A stretch of DNA of 64,000 nucleotides from Pleomorphomonas carboxyditropha (GTDB lineage: Bacteria; Pseudomonadota; Alphaproteobacteria; Rhizobiales; Pleomorphomonadaceae): contig NZ_NQVN01000002.1 in the NCBI RefSeq assembly GCF_002770725.1, positions 336,622-400,621 of the forward strand. Direction: 5' to 3'. The translations under genes and the position numbers were made by a program. Positions 10,389 to 21,150 of the stretch are shown piece after piece. Each line of letters opens with the position of its first letter. The first letter of the stretch is position 1. A model generated the notes under the pieces. The model worked only from the letters and a program-made list of their open reading frames with translations. It was not told the DNA's origin and searched no databases.

Positions 10389-11426
10389 TCAGGCGAAAAT
10401 ATCGACTGTGATGCGGTTGGCGATCTCTTCCGGGTCGGTCGAGGAATCCGCGACGCCGGTCAGCTTGAGATCTTCGTAGCCGATCCGTACTTCGTCGCGC
10501 AGTTGCTTGCCGAACCAGTGGTCGTGATAGGTGAAGGAAGCCAGCACTTCCGTCAGGTCTTCCAGCGGCAAGCCGGGCTTCAGCGTGTCGAAATACCACT
10601 TGGCAACCTCGTCGGGGTGCTCCGCGGTATAGTGATGGATTTCGAGATTGGCGGCGGCGACGCGCCGGATGGCGTCCTTGTTGGCTTCGTAATAGTCTCC
10701 GTTGACGCCGAGCACACAGCAGACGCGGTCCTGGAACGTGCCCGACTGGGTATCCGCGATCTTCAGGAAGCCGTGCTGCTTCTGGTAGGAATAGGCCCAT
10801 GGGTCCATGTGCGCGACGGCATCCGCCTCGCCCTTCAGCACGCCCTCGGCGACGAGATCGAACGGGAAGACCTTCCAGGTGACATCGGCGTCCGGATCGA
10901 GGCCGGCCTTGGCGAGCGCCACGGAAAAGGCGACGCGCGACGGCGACATCACGTCGAAGGTGCCGATCGTCTTGCCCTTGAGATCGGCGAGGGTCTTGAT
11001 CCCCGCATCCGGTTTCACCAGCAGCCGCTGGCAGCCGCCATGCGATCCGGCGAACAGCTTGACGTTGAGGCCCTGCTCGATCGGCTTCAGCCAGTCGTAG
11101 AGCAGGCCCGGTCCGGCCTCCGCCTTGTGGGTGGCGAGCGCCTGGATCAGCGTCTGGCCGCTGGAGCCCTGATAGAAGAGCTCCACCTCCAGTCCGTGCT
11201 TTGCATAAAACCCCTTGTCGACGCCGAAGCCGACCGGAGCGTGGCAGGCGGCGACTTCCGTCCATTCCAGCTTGATCGGCGTCAGGTTGCCGGCGATCGC
11301 ATATCTGCTCGGTTGCGTGGCGGCGATGCCGAAGGCGGCGACCGCCCCGGTAGCGCCCGCCGCCTTGATGAAGCCGCGCCGGGAAAGTCCGGCCGGCGGA
11401 AAAGCCCCCTGTTTCATGCTCGTCAA
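10389..11426 (-). CDS. NitT/TauT (sulfonate-type) ABC substrate-binding protein, orphan
   Basis: A 345-residue NMT1/SsuA-like periplasmic binding protein. It has a Tat-type signal (SRRGFIKAAGATGAVAAFG) and the domain starts at IKLEWTEVAACHAPVGFGVDKGFYAKHGLEVELFYQG. The family binds sulfonates, nitrate or related small anions and organosulfur compounds. No permease or ATPase gene lies next to it, so it must share a transporter encoded elsewhere or the TauT-type system at 27.7-30.4 kb. It is divergent from the TPP-riboswitch thiamine operon; a pyrimidine-precursor role (ThiY-like) is possible, but the sulfur genes nearby make an organosulfur ligand at least as likely. Confidence 0.82.
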   Translation of the reverse strand: MTSMKQGAFPPAGLSRRGFIKAAGATGAVAAFGIAATQPSRYAIAGNLTPIKLEWTEVAACHAPVGFGVDKGFYAKHGLEVELFYQGSSGQTLIQALATHKAEAGPGLLYDWLKPIEQGLNVKLFAGSHGGCQRLLVKPDAGIKTLADLKGKTIGTFDVMSPSRVAFSVALAKAGLDPDADVTWKVFPFDLVAEGVLKGEADAVAHMDPWAYSYQKQHGFLKIADTQSGTFQDRVCCVLGVNGDYYEANKDAIRRVAAANLEIHHYTAEHPDEVAKWYFDTLKPGLPLEDLTEVLASFTYHDHWFGKQLRDEVRIGYEDLKLTGVADSSTDPEEIANRITVDIFA

Positions 11427-15035: not shown

Positions 15036-15710
15036 TCAGGGACGGTAAAGCGGCTCGACGGTTCCGCCGAAGAATCCCGACAGGACCGACAGCAGGCGGT
15101 CGTGTCCTTGCCGGACGAATTCCGGCGAGGTCCGGGCGTTGCCCTGCACGATGAGGAAGGCGCTCTTGGTGCCGGCGGTCACCTTGGTCTTTTCCACCTG
15201 CCGCACTTCGAGCCGGCAGATGACGTCGCCGGCATCGTCGACATAGGCGTATTCCCCCGGCCGCACCGCTTCCGGTTCGGGCGCGCCGATCGGATGGAAG
15301 TGCTCCGTGCCGTCGGTGAGGCGCAGCGACACGTCGCCCTCGACGTGGTCGAGATCGTGTGCGCCGAGCGCCAGGCGGGTTTCGATGGACACGGCGTTGT
15401 AGAGATCGACGAATGGCCCGATGCGCGGAATGTCGCCGCGTTTTTCCAGGTAGCGCAGCAGCGTTTCCGGCGCCGAATGCAATTTCCGGGTCGGGACGGA
15501 AAAGTCCAGGTGCAACTGATGGAACCCCCGGAGGACCGGATCGTCCGACACCGGGATTTTGGCGAGCGCGCCCCGCGCCCTGGCAACCGCCTTATCGACG
15601 TATGCCGTCACGGCGGCGGGATCGGCCCGCGAGATATCGAAGTCCTTGAGGAGGGAATAGGCGCCGATCAGCCCTTTCTCAGCAACGGCCGGGGCCAGAT
15701 GAAACCGCAT
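15036..15710 (-). CDS. B3/B4 tRNA-binding-domain protein
   Basis: A 224-residue protein resembling the B3/B4 editing-type domain of phenylalanyl-tRNA synthetase beta chains (COG3382-like). Recognisable segments are ISRADPAAVTAYVDKAVARARGAL, the central LHLDFSVPTRKLHSAPETLLRYLEKRGDIPRIGPFVDLYNAVSIETRLALGAHDLD, and a C-terminal TKSAFLIVQGNA. Stand-alone members of this family have no firmly assigned role; tRNA or amino-acid binding is inferred. It follows the nitrogenase-like operon on the same strand after a terminator-like hairpin, with 176 bases between the genes. Confidence 0.75.
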   Translation of the reverse strand: MRFHLAPAVAEKGLIGAYSLLKDFDISRADPAAVTAYVDKAVARARGALAKIPVSDDPVLRGFHQLHLDFSVPTRKLHSAPETLLRYLEKRGDIPRIGPFVDLYNAVSIETRLALGAHDLDHVEGDVSLRLTDGTEHFHPIGAPEPEAVRPGEYAYVDDAGDVICRLEVRQVEKTKVTAGTKSAFLIVQGNARTSPEFVRQGHDRLLSVLSGFFGGTVEPLYRP

Positions 15711-15851
15711 CGTCGATCAGGTCTTTCGTATGCCGCCCGAAAGGTCGGGAAGCCGGGTGAGAAAATGGAACCGTATCCGGAGCATGGATCGCAGCTTATT
15801 CGAGCCCGCCATGAATGCCAGTGCATCCAGCGGAATTTCGTGCCGCCGTAT

Positions 15852-15878
15852 GCGGCCGCTCGCCACCCGAGCGGCCGC
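15852..15878 (-). terminator. stem-loop after nitrogenase-like K gene
   Basis: A perfect 11-bp stem, GCGGCCGCTCG / CGAGCGGCCGC, with a 5-base loop, 9 bases beyond the stop of the K subunit. No T-run follows on the - strand, so it may be a partial terminator or mRNA 3'-end hairpin separating the HDK operon from the B3/B4 gene. Confidence 0.6.
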
Positions 15879-15886
15879 GGGCGCGT

Positions 15887-17269
15887 TCAGGCGCTGGCGC
15901 CGACGGTAGTCGTGTAGATCTTCTCGAGCAGCGTCAGCGCGCCGCGATAGCCGACGTAGGAGCGCGACAGCACCACCTCGTAGGAGGTGGGGAAGCCGAC
16001 CTCGACGATGGCGCCTTTCAGTTCCTTGGCGAGATCGCGTTCCCAGGTGGTGCCGAAGATGATCGGCGCCTTGTGGCCGAAGTCCGTGGCGCGCAGCTTC
16101 TGATGGATCGTGTAGCTGTCTTCCTCGAACTCGACGTCGGTCGAGACGTCGTCGGCGATGTGCCGATAGTGCTCGACGATGCCGGCGCGGAATTCCTCCG
16201 GCGGATTGTCGGTGATGATCTGCTTGCCGGGGATCAGGCCCAGTTGGTTGACCAGGAAGTTGGTGAGGGCGAGGTTGTAGGTGGCGTCGCCCACCACGGC
16301 GAACTTGGCCGGCAGGCCCCACCAGTATTCGGCGTAGAAGTCGCTGAAATCCTCGAGATACTTGTAGTAGCGCGCCTCCTCCTCGGCGATGAACGCTTCC
16401 GCCCTGGCGCTCCGGCGTTTGCGGCCGGCAAAGGCGAGCACCTGCCGCAGGAAGGCCGTGGTGGCGTTGGCGCCGATCGGCAGCGCCGGCACGTGCAGGA
16501 ACGGCTGACCGTATTTCGCTTCGAGATGGCGGGCGGTGGCGACGCCGAGCCACGGGCCGAGCACGATGTTGAAGGCAGCCTTCGGGATCGCCTTCCACTC
16601 GGAAATGCCCTTCGATTCCGGGCCGAACAGGATGTTGACCCTGAGACCGACGCCCTCCAGCACCCGCTTGATCTCGGTGAGGTCGCCGCGCCAGAAGGTG
16701 TTGTGATAGGGCAGCAGCGACCAGACGTTGACGAGGTCGGCGTCGCGCGTGCCCTCGTAGGGACCGACATGCTGGTCGATGATCGCCCGCGTCACCAGTT
16801 CGTGGCCGGTGAAGTTGTTGCCGCGGAAGCCGCCGGTCTCGGCGTAGACGATCGGCACGCCGCGCTTCTGGTAGGGCGACACCACCCCGCCGATGTCGTC
16901 GCCGACCAGGTCGGAGATGCAGCCGGTCAGCACCACGAACAGATCGGCGTCGAGGATCTTCAGCGCGGCATCGATCAATTCGTCGAGCCGCTCGCCGCCG
17001 CCGAAGATCACCTCGCGCTCGGAGGCGTTGGTGCTCGGGATGACGGCGCCGCCGCCGTAGCCGCCGCCCTGGAAGCCATTGTAGAAGCTGAGGTTCATGA
17101 ACTGCTTGTCGGTGCAGCCCGGCCCGCAGTGGGTGATGGGAATGGCCCGCGGGATGGCCGCCACGGTCTGCTGGGCGCCGATGGCGCAGCCGTAGCGGAT
17201 CTGCTCGATGGAATTGGTCTTGGCGGGGGCGGCCGCCGGCTTGATGGAGGCGTGGTCGATCAGGGTCAT
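15887..17269 (-). CDS. marK: nitrogenase-like component 1 beta subunit, probable methylthio-alkane reductase MarK
   Basis: A 460-residue NifK-family protein. The three beta-side cysteines expected at the P-cluster position are all present: Cys28 (YGCAIGA), Cys52 (HCGPGCTDK) and Cys117 (LTGCISDLVGDD). It pairs with the D subunit encoded 13 bases upstream. Complete cysteine ligation separates it from BchB and CfbD-type relatives. Length is shorter than canonical NifK (about 520) and there is no nifE/N/B nearby. Among group IV nitrogenase-like enzymes the H-D-K order in a sulfur-gene context fits methylthio-alkane reductase, which releases methanethiol from volatile methylthio compounds. The family is certain; the Mar substrate is inference. 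Confidence 0.8.
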   Translation of the reverse strand: MTLIDHASIKPAAAPAKTNSIEQIRYGCAIGAQQTVAAIPRAIPITHCGPGCTDKQFMNLSFYNGFQGGGYGGGAVIPSTNASEREVIFGGGERLDELIDAALKILDADLFVVLTGCISDLVGDDIGGVVSPYQKRGVPIVYAETGGFRGNNFTGHELVTRAIIDQHVGPYEGTRDADLVNVWSLLPYHNTFWRGDLTEIKRVLEGVGLRVNILFGPESKGISEWKAIPKAAFNIVLGPWLGVATARHLEAKYGQPFLHVPALPIGANATTAFLRQVLAFAGRKRRSARAEAFIAEEEARYYKYLEDFSDFYAEYWWGLPAKFAVVGDATYNLALTNFLVNQLGLIPGKQIITDNPPEEFRAGIVEHYRHIADDVSTDVEFEEDSYTIHQKLRATDFGHKAPIIFGTTWERDLAKELKGAIVEVGFPTSYEVVLSRSYVGYRGALTLLEKIYTTTVGASA

Positions 17270-17282
17270 GGGAGCGCTCCGT

Positions 17283-18821
17283 TCACTCGGCGGCCCGGGA
17301 GGGCTGGGAAGCCCGGGCCAGCAGGAAGGGATCGCTCTGTTCGAGCCACCACTTCTTGTAGGGCAGCTTGACGCGCCCGGCGAGGTCCTGGTGGAACTTC
17401 TTGTGGGCCAGCACGTCGAGGATAGATTCGCCGAGATTGAGGATGCCCTGGTAGCCGACGGTGTGATGCTCGTCGCCGAGCGGGATGGCGGGAATGCCGA
17501 GGCGCGAGGCGAGCGGGGCGAGGCCGTTGTGGCGAATGATGATGAAGTCCGGCTTCACCTGCTGCAGCAGCGCGTAGAACTGATACTGCTGGCGATTGCC
17601 GACCGTGAACTGCGGCACGTCGCCGTAATTGTCGATCAGGTGGCTGAGCGAATCCTGGCGCGGGTCCTGGCTGTCGTAGACGGGGTCGTGGTGGAAGACC
17701 AGCGAGCCGTCGACCTCGACGCCGAGCTCGCGCAGCACGGCGATGAGGCCGTGCGAATAGGCCGAGCCGGTCGACACGTAGCCCTTCTTGCCCTTGAGCA
17801 GTTCCTTGAGTTCGGCCAGGCGCGGCTGAACGCGCTCGTGCTCGCGGGCGATATAGGCCTCGGCCCGTTCCTCGCGGTGGGTGACGCGGGCGATCTCGCG
17901 CAGCCAGGCGTCGGTGCCGGCGAAGCCGTAGGGCTGCGGCGCCTTGATCTCCGGCACGCCGAACTCCTGTTCGAGCCCGGCCGCCAGGTAGGACGACAGC
18001 GTGTAGCAGAAGCCGACGGTGGCCGCCGCCTCCGACATCTTCGCCAGATCCTCGACCGAGGCGAGATCGACGACGTAGTTCACCTTGAGGCCCAGTTCGC
18101 CGAGGATGGGCGAGAACACGTCGGAACCCCAGAGGTTGATGACGTTGACGAGCTCCTCGTCCTTTTTCGCTGGGTTCTTGCGGACGATCTGCCGGAGAAT
18201 GCCGTGCTGGGTGGCGTCGAAGCCGGTCGACCAGTGCTTGGACTTGAACCCCTCGCAATGCAGCGGGACCACCGGGATGCCCAGTTCCTTCTCGAGATGG
18301 CCGGCCGCGCTTTCGACGTCGTCGCCGATGATGCCGGTGGCACAGGAGGTGGCGATGAAGATCGCCTCGGGGTGGTGGCGCTCGAAGGCGTCGCGGATCG
18401 ACTGTTCCAGCTTGGCGATGCCGCCGAACACCATGTCGCGCTCGGTGAGGTTGGTGCTGATGAGGTGCAGGTTCTCGACCGGCAGGCCGCGGGCCGCCAG
18501 GCCGTTGCGGTAGATCGAATTGTAGATCACCTGTCCGGTGCCGCAGCCGATCGGCGAATGCTGGACCAGCACGGCGTTGCGGACGTTGCCGGCCTGGCAC
18601 TCGACCATCTGCTCGGAGCAGACCGAGCCTTGCGTGAACGGACCCTTCAGCTCGCACACCCGCCGCGCCTTGCGGCCGTCGCTTCCGCCGCAGCCGTCGC
18701 AGCCGCCGCGGGCGTAGGCCGATTCCCGGGCGAGGTCCGAAGCCCTGCCATGCCAGCCGATGATGGTGCCGAGCCGCTGCTCGCGGCTTTCGACCACCGC
18801 CGTCTTGAGGTTGATCGCCAT
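17283..18821 (-). CDS. marD: nitrogenase-like component 1 alpha subunit, probable methylthio-alkane reductase MarD
   Basis: A 512-residue NifD-family protein; ATG at 18821 has AGGAG upstream and lies 11 bases after the H gene. The alpha-side P-cluster-type cysteines are Cys68 (GSVCSEQ), Cys93 (PIGCGTG) and Cys160 (TSCATGIIGDD). The cysteine that holds the active-site cofactor in NifD (Cys275 of Azotobacter) has a counterpart, Cys272 in GFCYTLSSYL. The expected His442 motif is replaced by DEHHTVGYQG, offering His452/His453 as candidate ligands. An unusual Cys/Gly-rich N-terminal stretch (GGCDGCGGSDGRKARRVC, residues 39-56) precedes the core. This indicates both electron-transfer cluster and a nitrogenase-type cofactor; reduction of C-S bonds is the inferred role. 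Confidence 0.8.
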   Translation of the reverse strand: MAINLKTAVVESREQRLGTIIGWHGRASDLARESAYARGGCDGCGGSDGRKARRVCELKGPFTQGSVCSEQMVECQAGNVRNAVLVQHSPIGCGTGQVIYNSIYRNGLAARGLPVENLHLISTNLTERDMVFGGIAKLEQSIRDAFERHHPEAIFIATSCATGIIGDDVESAAGHLEKELGIPVVPLHCEGFKSKHWSTGFDATQHGILRQIVRKNPAKKDEELVNVINLWGSDVFSPILGELGLKVNYVVDLASVEDLAKMSEAAATVGFCYTLSSYLAAGLEQEFGVPEIKAPQPYGFAGTDAWLREIARVTHREERAEAYIAREHERVQPRLAELKELLKGKKGYVSTGSAYSHGLIAVLRELGVEVDGSLVFHHDPVYDSQDPRQDSLSHLIDNYGDVPQFTVGNRQQYQFYALLQQVKPDFIIIRHNGLAPLASRLGIPAIPLGDEHHTVGYQGILNLGESILDVLAHKKFHQDLAGRVKLPYKKWWLEQSDPFLLARASQPSRAAE

Positions 18822-18832
18822 CGTTTTTCTCC

Positions 18833-19705
18833 TCAAGCCACCTGGATGGCGCGTTCGCGCTGGTTCTCGGCCTCGATCAGCCGATCCGCCCAACTGGCCG
18901 ACCATTCGCGCAGTTCCTGCTGGCCGAGCGGCGTCGGCACCTTCGACTGGGTGTGCTCGGCGATACGGGTGGCCAGGCGCCGGTAGATGCTGGCCTGCTC
19001 GGACTTGGGAGCGGCCTCGATGGTGGTGCGGCCGGACAGTTCGGCCTGGGTGACGGTCACCGAGCGCGGCACGTATTCGACCACCTGCGTCGCCGTGCGG
19101 CCGACGAAGTCGTCGATGATCTCGTGGTGGAAATCGGTGTTGATCGAGTTGGCGATGACGCCGCCGAGCAGGGCGCCGCCCTTGTTGGAATAGGTCTGGA
19201 TGCCGCGGAACAGATTGTTGGCGGCGTAGATCGCCATGAAATCCGAGGAGGAGATGGTGAAGACGTGCTCGGCGATGCCCTCGCGCACCGGCACGGCGAA
19301 GCCGCCGCACACCACGTCGCCGAGCACGTCGAAGATCACGAAGTCGAGGTCGAGCTCCTCGAAGATGTCCTGCTGCTTGAGCAACTGGACGGCGGAGATG
19401 ATGCCGCGGCCGGCGCAGCCGACGCCCGGCTGCGGACCGCCGGCCTCGACGCAGTAGATGCCGCCGAAGCCCTTGAAGATGGCGTCGTGGGCGTCGACCG
19501 AGCTGTTGGCGTGCAGGAGGTCGAGCACGGTGGGGATATAGTCGCCGCCGCGAAGCGTATTGGTGCTGTCGGCTTTGGGGTCGCAGCCGAACTGCATCAC
19601 CTTGTAGCCGGCTTCCGCGAGGGCCGCCGAGATGTTGGAGGTGGTCGTCGACTTGCCGATGCCACCCTTGCCGTAGATGGCGATCTGTTTGGTTTTCTTG
19701 GCCAT
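18833..19705 (-). CDS. marH: nitrogenase reductase-like protein, probable MarH
   Basis: A 290-residue NifH-family ATP-dependent electron donor. It has P-loop YGKGGIGKST (residues 11-20), the 4Fe-4S cysteines Cys97 (GVGCAGRG) and Cys133 (GDVVCGGF), and Arg100, the residue ADP-ribosylated in some NifH proteins. ATG at 19705 with GAAGGAA upstream is preferred; the frame remains open 64 codons further into A+T-rich promoter DNA. It is the first gene of a three-gene operon with 11- and 13-base spacers. Sequence alone does not exclude a true nitrogenase reductase, but the partners and neighbourhood do not support N2 fixation. Confidence 0.85.
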   Translation of the reverse strand: MAKKTKQIAIYGKGGIGKSTTTSNISAALAEAGYKVMQFGCDPKADSTNTLRGGDYIPTVLDLLHANSSVDAHDAIFKGFGGIYCVEAGGPQPGVGCAGRGIISAVQLLKQQDIFEELDLDFVIFDVLGDVVCGGFAVPVREGIAEHVFTISSSDFMAIYAANNLFRGIQTYSNKGGALLGGVIANSINTDFHHEIIDDFVGRTATQVVEYVPRSVTVTQAELSGRTTIEAAPKSEQASIYRRLATRIAEHTQSKVPTPLGQQELREWSASWADRLIEAENQRERAIQVA

Positions 19706-19836
19706 GTGTGCTTCCTTCAGACAAAGACGAGCCGATGCCGCTCCACGCGCGGAGCGGCGGTTTGGTCGGATCCCGAATAGGTTCGGCGCCGTCGCCCCGC
19801 CGGTGCGGCCGGGGCCGACAAACCAGGCTTTCAGCG

Positions 19837-19869
19837 ATAAGTACTTTATATTACTGTAAATATACTTAT
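19837..19869 (-). promoter_or_regulatory. inverted repeat upstream of nitrogenase-like operon
   Basis: ATAAGTA and TACTTAT flank a 19-base A+T-rich centre that itself contains TTACTGTAA. It lies about 130 bases upstream of the H gene in an otherwise G+C-rich region, where the operon promoter should be. A LysR-type or other dimeric activator site is plausible. I looked for the sigma-54 -24/-12 pattern and did not find it. The 428-base gap (19706-20133) also holds the terminator hairpin at 20071 and nothing else I can support. Confidence 0.45.
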
Positions 19870-20070
19870 CTATTTCCCGGGCTGTTACTGACGACAACTG
19901 CCTGGACTTTAGGGGAGTGCGGCGCGAAGGTGAATATAAAATACTAAATTGATATTCTATTATTGCCCGTCAATCCGTTGGTTGCGCCTATGAGTGGCGC
20001 GGTTGGGGCAATGTCGTTTCATCGCACGGCAATCGCCGGTCCTCGGGGCGCGAAGGCCGACCCATGCGGA

Positions 20071-20101
20071 AAGGTCGCGATGGCGGGACCATCGCGACCT
20101 T
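20071..20101 (-). terminator. terminator hairpin of the betaine/choline-type transporter operon
   Basis: A perfect 13-bp stem, AAGGTCGCGATGG / CCATCGCGACCTT, with a 5-base loop, 33 bases beyond the stop codon of the binding-protein gene on the - strand. The A/T pairs at the stem base resemble a weak intrinsic terminator. Confidence 0.65.
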
Positions 20102-20133
20102 GTCGGGAAAGAGCGGCTGATCGGCGGTGTCTG

Positions 20134-21150
20134 TCAGAGGCCGGCGACCCAGGCGTCGACCGTCGGCTTGTTGGCCTCCACCCAGGCCTTGGCGGCGGCG
20201 GCCGGCTCGACCTTGTTCTGATCGATCTCGCGGATCAGGCTGTTGAGTGCCGCCGGATCGATTTTCACGTTGGTGAGGAAGGCGGCGATCCTGGGCGCGT
20301 CCGTCTCGAGATGCTTGGCGTGCAGCACGTAGACCTGCGCATCGGGGAAGGCGGAGGTGATCGAGCTCTTGTTCAGCCAGTCCGGATCCTCGGTCGGGCT
20401 GACGAACTTCCACTTGCCGTTCGGGTTATACTGCGGATCGTCCTTCTTGTTGTCCTGGGCGTAGCCGTCGAAGGCCGGTTCCTCCAGGCGGCGGAGATCG
20501 TAGGCGGCGAAGATCCAGTCGGGCGTATAGCCGTAGAACAGCACGCCGGTCTTGGCCTTGAAGGCGGCGTCGATCTTGGCGTAGGTGGCGGCCGCCTCGG
20601 TGGAGACGATGTCGAAATTGGGCGCGAAGCCGTAATCCTTGGCCTTCACCTCGCTGATATAGGTCGATTCCCAGCCGGCCGGGCCGACCAGGAATTCCGG
20701 CTTGCCGCCGCCGGGCGCCGCGAACAGCGCGGCGACCTCCGGCTTGACGAGGTCGTCGACCGATTTGACGCCGTGTTCGTCGGCAATATAGGCGGGAACG
20801 TAGAAGCCCTGCTCGGCGGTGTAGGGCGATGTGTTGGGGATCAGCGTCTCGGTGCCGCCCGGCGCCACGAACTTCGCCCAGGCGGTCGCCTGGTTGGGCA
20901 GCCAGATATCCGGCAGGACGTCGACCGAGCCGTCGTTCTTGGCGGCGCCGGCGAACAGCACCGGCAGGTCGGCGGCGAGGAAGCTCACCTCGCCGTCGAG
21001 CCGGCCGCGGATCACCTCGGCGAGCACGTGCTGGATGGCGATGGCGCCGGTCCAGTTCTGCTCGCCGATCACCACCTTCTCGGCGGCGGCCGATGGACCG
21101 GCGAAGGACGCGACGAGCGTCAGGCCGGCGAGGATCGATTTCAGGCTCAT
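20134..21150 (-). CDS. glycine betaine/choline-type ABC substrate-binding protein
   Basis: A 338-residue ProX/OpuAC-type binding protein with a Sec signal peptide (cleavage probably after SAAA, residue 23). The mature start EKVVIGEQNWTGAIAIQHVLAEVI is typical of this family; aromatic residues such as the VGPAGWEST and FYGYTPDW segments would form the quaternary-ammonium cage. ATG at 21150 follows AGGAG, 17 bases after the ATPase-permease gene. With choline-sulfatase encoded next door, choline-O-sulfate or choline is a likely ligand. Confidence 0.85.
   Translation of the reverse strand: MSLKSILAGLTLVASFAGPSAAAEKVVIGEQNWTGAIAIQHVLAEVIRGRLDGEVSFLAADLPVLFAGAAKNDGSVDVLPDIWLPNQATAWAKFVAPGGTETLIPNTSPYTAEQGFYVPAYIADEHGVKSVDDLVKPEVAALFAAPGGGKPEFLVGPAGWESTYISEVKAKDYGFAPNFDIVSTEAAATYAKIDAAFKAKTGVLFYGYTPDWIFAAYDLRRLEEPAFDGYAQDNKKDDPQYNPNGKWKFVSPTEDPDWLNKSSITSAFPDAQVYVLHAKHLETDAPRIAAFLTNVKIDPAALNSLIREIDQNKVEPAAAAKAWVEANKPTVDAWVAGL

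Follow-up and report, generated by a model that had tools for sequence, protein, structure and literature searches.

The subject of this work is an operon of three nitrogenase-like genes in the genome of Pleomorphomonas carboxyditropha, located within a stretch of 64,000 nucleotides (the window) of the contig designated C22. Sequence comparisons make it very probable that its products H, D and K form a methylthio-alkane reductase (Mar), and this activity is predicted here. Such an enzyme is already known from Rhodospirillum rubrum, and the window operon would add another member, without an adjacent cofactor-building gene. All three genes lie on the minus strand: marH (18833..19705) for a predicted reductase, or Fe protein, of 290 residues; marD (17283..18821) for a catalytic subunit of 512 residues that would carry the [Fe8S9C] site; and marK (15887..17269) for a β subunit of 460 residues. 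When the open reading frames (ORFs) and the gaps between them were recomputed, the coordinates of the first-pass annotation of this DNA proved correct, with the H-D-K order and spacers of 11 and 13 bases; all three ORFs are full-length.

In a search of PDB sequences, the product of marD gave its highest score, 959 bits, with chain 9fmg_A over the full length, the top NifD reaching 128. That of marK matched 9d9u_C, whose sequence is identical in 9fmg, with 833 bits (next chain, 73), and that of marH matched 9fmg_D, R. rubrum MarH, with 538 bits (next match, 277). PMC12552129 identifies entry 9FMG as the methylthio-alkane reductase of R. rubrum, MarDK2H2. The molecule names given in the PDB for the matched chains are just 'Nitrogenase' and 'Nitrogenase iron protein', and the Mar identity is taken from that paper. 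Because these scores extend over nearly the whole lengths of the Mar chains, the resemblance of H, D and K to Mar is judged not to be due to chance. Identity to the R. rubrum proteins amounts to 82.1% for D (418/509) and to 80.6% for K (362/449). Pleomorphomonas belongs to another order than R. rubrum.

The features shared with R. rubrum MarHDK (PDB 9FMG; PMC12552129) are the H-D-K genes, the P-cluster cysteines, the cofactor-ligand loop and the checked pocket residues. The two systems differ in that R. rubrum has marBHDK whereas marB is not adjacent in the window, and in that the window genome additionally holds Nif, Anf and a second Mar-type set. The nearest relative found is the mar locus L049 of Magnetospirillum fulvum MGU-K5 (D 86%, K 80-82%); there, unlike in the window, a NifB-type gene stands upstream of marH. 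The literature matches listed included no Mar study in Pleomorphomonas. MarHDK-like genes have been described near methyltransferase clusters (PMC10418091).

Phylogenetic placement and metal-site residues

The first-pass annotation had read the operon as Mar rather than as a nitrogen-fixing system, and the trees bear this out: D and K group with R. rubrum MarD and MarK, and not with the catalytic Nif/Vnf/Anf proteins or another nitrogenase-like clade. Other mar loci were collected by scanning contigs with two short peptide patterns, which gave 21 loci and a biased sample. The rows of the trees (model LG+G4) were chosen by hand, 48 D and 37 K sequences out of 126 non-redundant ORFs being joined to those of the window, the second set and R. 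rubrum. In the D tree (51 rows, BchN as outgroup), window D and R. rubrum MarD lie in a 15-row clade (support 99/98), nested in a 33-row Mar clade (100/100); NifD, AnfD/VnfD and NifE are united in another clade (100/100). In the K tree (40 rows), window K belongs to a 30-row Mar clade (100/99), is nearest to M. fulvum L049 (92/84) and stands outside the clade of the Nif/Vnf/Anf/NifE/NifN side (100/99). The second type of K is one group there (100/99). Since this tree has BchB as its outgroup, it is by itself no test of membership in the Bch reductases; D, for its part, stands apart from BchN, and K fails the BchB model. In the comparison with NCBIfam models, D scores 143, 98 and 68 bits against NifD, VNFD and ANFD, with cut-offs of 654, 823 and 874, and both D and K remain far under every cut-off listed.

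The alignments confirm the six P-cluster cysteines recognized earlier, Cys68, Cys93 and Cys160 in D and Cys28, Cys52 and Cys117 in K; a Q occupying the first cysteine column of K in the NifK, AnfK, VnfK and NifN rows was read as a one-residue alignment shift. Cys272 of D had been taken for the counterpart of the NifD cofactor cysteine and indeed aligns with R. rubrum Cys270. In the R. rubrum enzyme, the cofactor ligands are Cys270 and His429, and the pair Arg428-His429 was proposed as a likely hallmark (PMC12552129). The histidines 452 and 453, named as candidate ligands in the annotation, do occur in window D, yet neither corresponds to the cofactor ligand, because the structural ligand His429 aligns with window His431. 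His452 itself aligns with R. rubrum His450, and this position is occupied by Leu in one window-type row and by Asn in 18 of the 18 second-type rows. The predicted cofactor histidine of window D is thus His431, inside the Arg-His loop.

Around the cluster, R. rubrum MarD displays Cys73, Gln74, His194, Trp195, Phe199 and His375 (PMC12552129). The window counterparts of these residues and of the ligand loop are identical (Cys272, Arg430, His431, Cys75, Gln76, His196, Trp197, Phe201, His377), and over the whole set of 12 ligand and pocket positions that were compared, D does not differ from R. rubrum MarD. The Arg-His pair is found in each of the 33 Mar-type D rows and in none of the 18 others. 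Moreover, the counterparts of NifD Val70, Gln191 and His195 are absent from window D and replaced as in MarD, which sets it apart from the nitrogenases. Window H retains the P-loop (GKGGIGKS), Cys97 and Cys133 (numbering of R. rubrum MarH, PMC12552129).

Proposed pathway, cofactor supply and rival readings

For the R. rubrum enzyme, the clusters and the reaction are established, and no N2 reduction occurs (PMC12552129). By analogy, we infer the activity and the substrates of the enzyme in Pleomorphomonas. MarH would hydrolyse ATP and pass electrons via its [Fe4S4] cluster to the P-cluster between MarD and MarK, and from there they would reach the MarD [Fe8S9C] cluster, with Cys272 and His431 as its predicted ligands. 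At this cluster, the C-S bond of small methylthio compounds would be cut to yield methanethiol and a hydrocarbon. Methanethiol would then be converted to methionine by O-acetylhomoserine sulfhydrylase. In R. rubrum and Rhodopseudomonas palustris, MtnK, MtnA and Ald2 constitute a dihydroxyacetone phosphate (DHAP) shunt leading to 2-methylthioacetaldehyde and used for methionine (PMC10986504). The genome studied here has two mtnA genes, on C22 and C12, an mtnK gene, also on C22, that scores 386.6 bits (cut-off 275), and, 1.3 kb from the C12 mtnA, a gene for a class II aldolase of the FucA family. It also encodes three homologues of O-acetylhomoserine sulfhydrylase, 68, 63 and 47% identical to that of mar locus L057, and a gene for this enzyme is present at several mar loci. 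Candidate genes thus exist for substrate supply and for methanethiol use; the pathway is plausible at both ends, with the aldolase as a putative Ald2.

As to the cofactor, the statement that no nifB, nifE or nifN lies near the operon holds: only two of the ten PF00148 matches of the genome fall in the window, D and K themselves, and none of the four nifB-model matches is on contig C22. Looking elsewhere in the genome revealed nifB on contig C55 (666.7 bits) and a second NifB-type radical-SAM gene on C4, within the second Mar-type set (254 bits, cut-off 343.65); the marB genes of L049 and L052 likewise remain under that cut-off. A separate NifX-like piece also occurs within the C4 set. The genome therefore possesses NifB-type maturases; at the other window-type loci, a NifB-type gene next to mar is usual, not universal, as illustrated by L051. 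Because no marB adjoins the window operon, it most likely relies on a precursor made in trans, from nifB on C55 or from the C4 gene. At L051 (5773-9211, M. fulvum MGU-K5), the order is X-D-K and no marH or marB homologue was found in the locus.

Several observations weigh against the Mar assignment or against parts of it. The NCBIfam matches of window H, D and K include no Mar model, and the top match of K is BchB, with 93.6 bits, far under the cut-off of 490. No marB adjoins the operon, whereas a NifB-type gene stands beside mar at five of the six other window-type loci read (L049, L050, L052, L060 and L102; not L051), two of the five having been checked against NCBIfam; the gene calls in these neighbourhood tables pass filters on length and on GC content at third codon positions, so that genes can be missed. 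Pocket position 73 is variable among window-type MarD (Cys in six of nine rows), and therefore substrate preference may vary. As regards the pathway, mtnA is widespread, being over the cut-off in 8 of 14 control genomes, so that its presence says little, and the aldolase, with 231.7 bits, is below its family cut-off of 264, the Ald2 label being inferred. Finally, branching within the 15-row clade of D is unsettled, only 6% of the 200 bootstrap trees showing the nine window-type rows as one group. Support is also weak (44/54) for the branch of the K tree that unites window-type and Acetobacteraceae-type rows (14 Mar rows outside the second type), and for both trees the program flagged long branches, which may be falsely joined.

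Among other explanations, it may be imagined that the enzyme has the Mar fold and that its main physiological substrate is another methyl-sulfur compound than (2-methylthio)ethanol. The variation of position 73 would fit this idea, as would the use of dimethyl sulfide and ethyl methyl sulfide by the R. rubrum enzyme (PMC12552129) and the second Mar-type set, which could cover one of the substrates. Set against this are the identity of all 12 checked positions with R. rubrum MarD and the presence of candidate genes for the route producing (2-methylthio)ethanol, and we consider such a substrate change rather unlikely. An operon gained without marB whose enzyme is not made active, in other words a decayed or unmatured acquisition, appears improbable. 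Although marB is not beside the operon and window-type marD, the choline-sulfatase gene and the B3/4-domain gene near it each occur in 1 of 14 genomes of the genus, the three ORFs are full-length and retain the ligands checked, the genome has two NifB-type genes at other places, and at L051, too, marDK is present without any marB or marH homologue having been found in that locus.

The two remaining explanations carry less weight. A further N2-fixing system would share the H-D-K layout and the P-cluster cysteines, and window H does pass the NifH model, exceeding its cut-off by 6 bits. Yet neither D nor K falls within the Nif/Vnf/Anf/NifE/NifN clade (100/100 for D, 100/99 for K), the counterparts of the three NifD residues are replaced as in MarD, 15N2 was not reduced by the R. 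rubrum enzyme (PMC12552129) and the genome already has Nif and Anf sets, all of which makes a catalytic nitrogenase extremely improbable. It is also very doubtful that the reductase is tied to the adjacent thiSGHF operon and feeds sulfur to anaerobic thiazole synthesis. The genes thiS, thiG, thiH and thiF do begin 0.9 kb past marK, with one gene between, and ThiH is an enzyme of the anaerobic type. The thi operon is nevertheless on the opposite strand, did not turn up in the DNA examined around 21 other mar loci, and occurs in the relative G007 with no mar gene in the 12,000 of 13,453 contig bases read. Methylthio-alkane reductase remains the preferred identity of the window enzyme.

A second Mar-type set beside two nitrogenases

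The ten PF00148 matches are distributed as follows: four on C31, anfDK and the window pair on C22, and, on C4, the pair of the second Mar-type set. Of the four on C31, NifD passes its NCBIfam model, and NifK, NifE and NifN are named by likeness. The anfHDK-like genes (L011, 7284-11775; C22:307-312 kb) are on the same contig as mar, with AnfD and AnfK over their NCBIfam cut-offs; about 41 kb separate the anfH-like gene from marK.

The second, divergent Mar-type set (L013, 4216-9335; C4:46215-51334) has the gene order D-K-X-B-H. It lies near a cystathionine β-synthase-like gene and several other enzymes of the pyridoxal phosphate type. Its D shares 54.0% identity with window D and is part of a second-type clade of 18 rows (100/99), together with sequences of R. 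palustris, R. infernalis, Rhodoblastus, M. fulvum, Telmatospirillum, Rhodopila and other Pleomorphomonas. All 18 rows share with the window and R. rubrum the P-cluster cysteines, Cys270, Arg428-His429, His194, Trp195 and His375. They differ by Asn74, Trp199, Ser449 and Asn450, present in 18 of 18, and by Thr (17 rows) or Ser (one row) at position 73. At nine second-type loci, a sulfhydrylase-family gene is directly upstream of D, and a cystathionine β-synthase-like gene recurs at eight, the families having been checked for a few of these loci. R. palustris obtains sulfur from 5′-methylthioadenosine via methanethiol (PMC10986504); nothing seen in the excerpts of that paper links this use to the second-type enzyme.

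These data lead us to consider tentatively, with less than even confidence, that two Mar isoenzymes coexist with the Mo- and Fe-nitrogenases. One would be an acquired canonical enzyme without its own maturase gene, and the other would be resident in the genus, with a pocket that is distinct and fixed within its clade (Thr/Ser73, Asn74, Trp199) and with a substrate that probably differs; both would depend on a shared NifB pool. In that case, four enzyme systems of a single cell would be supplied by NifB, and there would be competition between C-S and N2 chemistry for the same precursor. The interest of the genome resides in the marB missing beside the operon and in the gathering of two Mar-type sets and two nitrogenases. 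The co-occurrence of a canonical Mar lacking its own marB with nifB, nif, anf and a second Mar-type set offers a natural test of the sharing of NifB precursor between N2 fixation and C-S cleavage, and the second-type clade provides naturally occurring variants of the pocket with which to study the determinants of substrate range. Mar converts methylated sulfur compounds to ethylene, ethane or methane in the absence of oxygen, and its hosts are thus relevant to ethylene in waterlogged soil and to sulfur salvage (PMC12552129).

Other arrangements were encountered during the survey. In Rhodopseudomonas sp. BR0M22, a contig with two Mar-type sets also carries a third, very divergent H-D-K set (L100, 2287-5793), whose D, in the alignment, is without Cys270, the Arg-His pair and two of the three P-cluster cysteines and matches no NCBIfam family at 1e-20. 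In the relative G048 (L102, 7909-12374), a tandem marD pair precedes one marK, and the two copies have Cys and Thr, respectively, at pocket position 73. A metagenome-assembled genome labelled Candidatus Methanoplasma contains a frame of 763 residues in which a D-type domain follows an H-type reductase (L089, 490-2781) and, on another contig (L056), a Mar-type HDK set; contamination is possible.

Distribution and gene neighbourhood

Window-type marD is present in one of 14 genomes of the genus, its own included, and the second type in six of 14, hence the latter is commoner. The window thiH was found in two of these 14 genomes (E <= 1e-60), and choline-sulfatase (1e-100) and the B3/4 gene beside marK (1e-20) in one each; several of the genomes are drafts of 86-99% completeness, in which an absence is no proof. 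Among 397 genomes drawn from the order, Mar-type D (E <= 1e-100) occurs in at least 10, with at least three of the window type, at least nine of the second type and two genomes with both, these counts being lower bounds since at most three candidates were scored per genome. Because of the distribution in the genus and of the nearest D relative being in Magnetospirillum, horizontal acquisition would be the simplest account, and the window operon was probably acquired. The GC content of the region is unremarkable and gives no sign of acquisition.

Directly beyond marK is the B3/4-domain gene, followed on the plus strand by the thiF/moeB-like, thiH, thiG and thiS genes and then by a gene for an SsuA-like binding protein (10389-11426, minus strand). 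The surrounding sulfur genes had been invoked as pointing to Mar. The thi genes are indeed there and lend this argument weak support, since the locus DNA examined for the 21 other mar loci showed no thiGHF homologues; a functional link between thiSGHF and mar is accordingly not supported. The SsuA-like protein is 59.6-61.2% identical to proteins near the second-type loci L061, L067 and L068, and 33-39% identical to proteins near L053, L057 and L058. It may be considered a better candidate partner of mar than thiSGHF.

Upstream of mar, genes for a choline-type ATP-binding cassette (ABC) transporter and for a choline-sulfatase (784 bits against a cut-off of 433) run in the same direction, with a LysR gene on the strand opposite to mar. 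A literature search for the regulator name SalR in connection with R. rubrum found no paper. Between the choline ABC gene and marH lies a perfect hairpin (20071..20101, minus strand) with a 13-bp stem and a 5-base loop; in 40 shuffled sequences, the best inverted repeat did not exceed 11 bp. It possibly marks the end of the upstream choline transcript; it has no clear T tract and is not among the predicted terminators. The marH leader (19706..20070, minus strand) contains AT-rich blocks and is the presumed promoter region. Its single sigma-70-like match (19888-19859) is weak, one being found in 15700-20150 against 0.6 expected, and the leader has no block above shuffles in common with any of the 11 other leaders compared. 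The M. fulvum leaders at L049 (7880-7917) and L050 (7538-7575) have in common an AT-rich box ending in TTGACA, with a score of 41 against a shuffle maximum of 28 (n=100), which could be an operator or a promoter. The Pleomorphomonas second-type leaders share another block.

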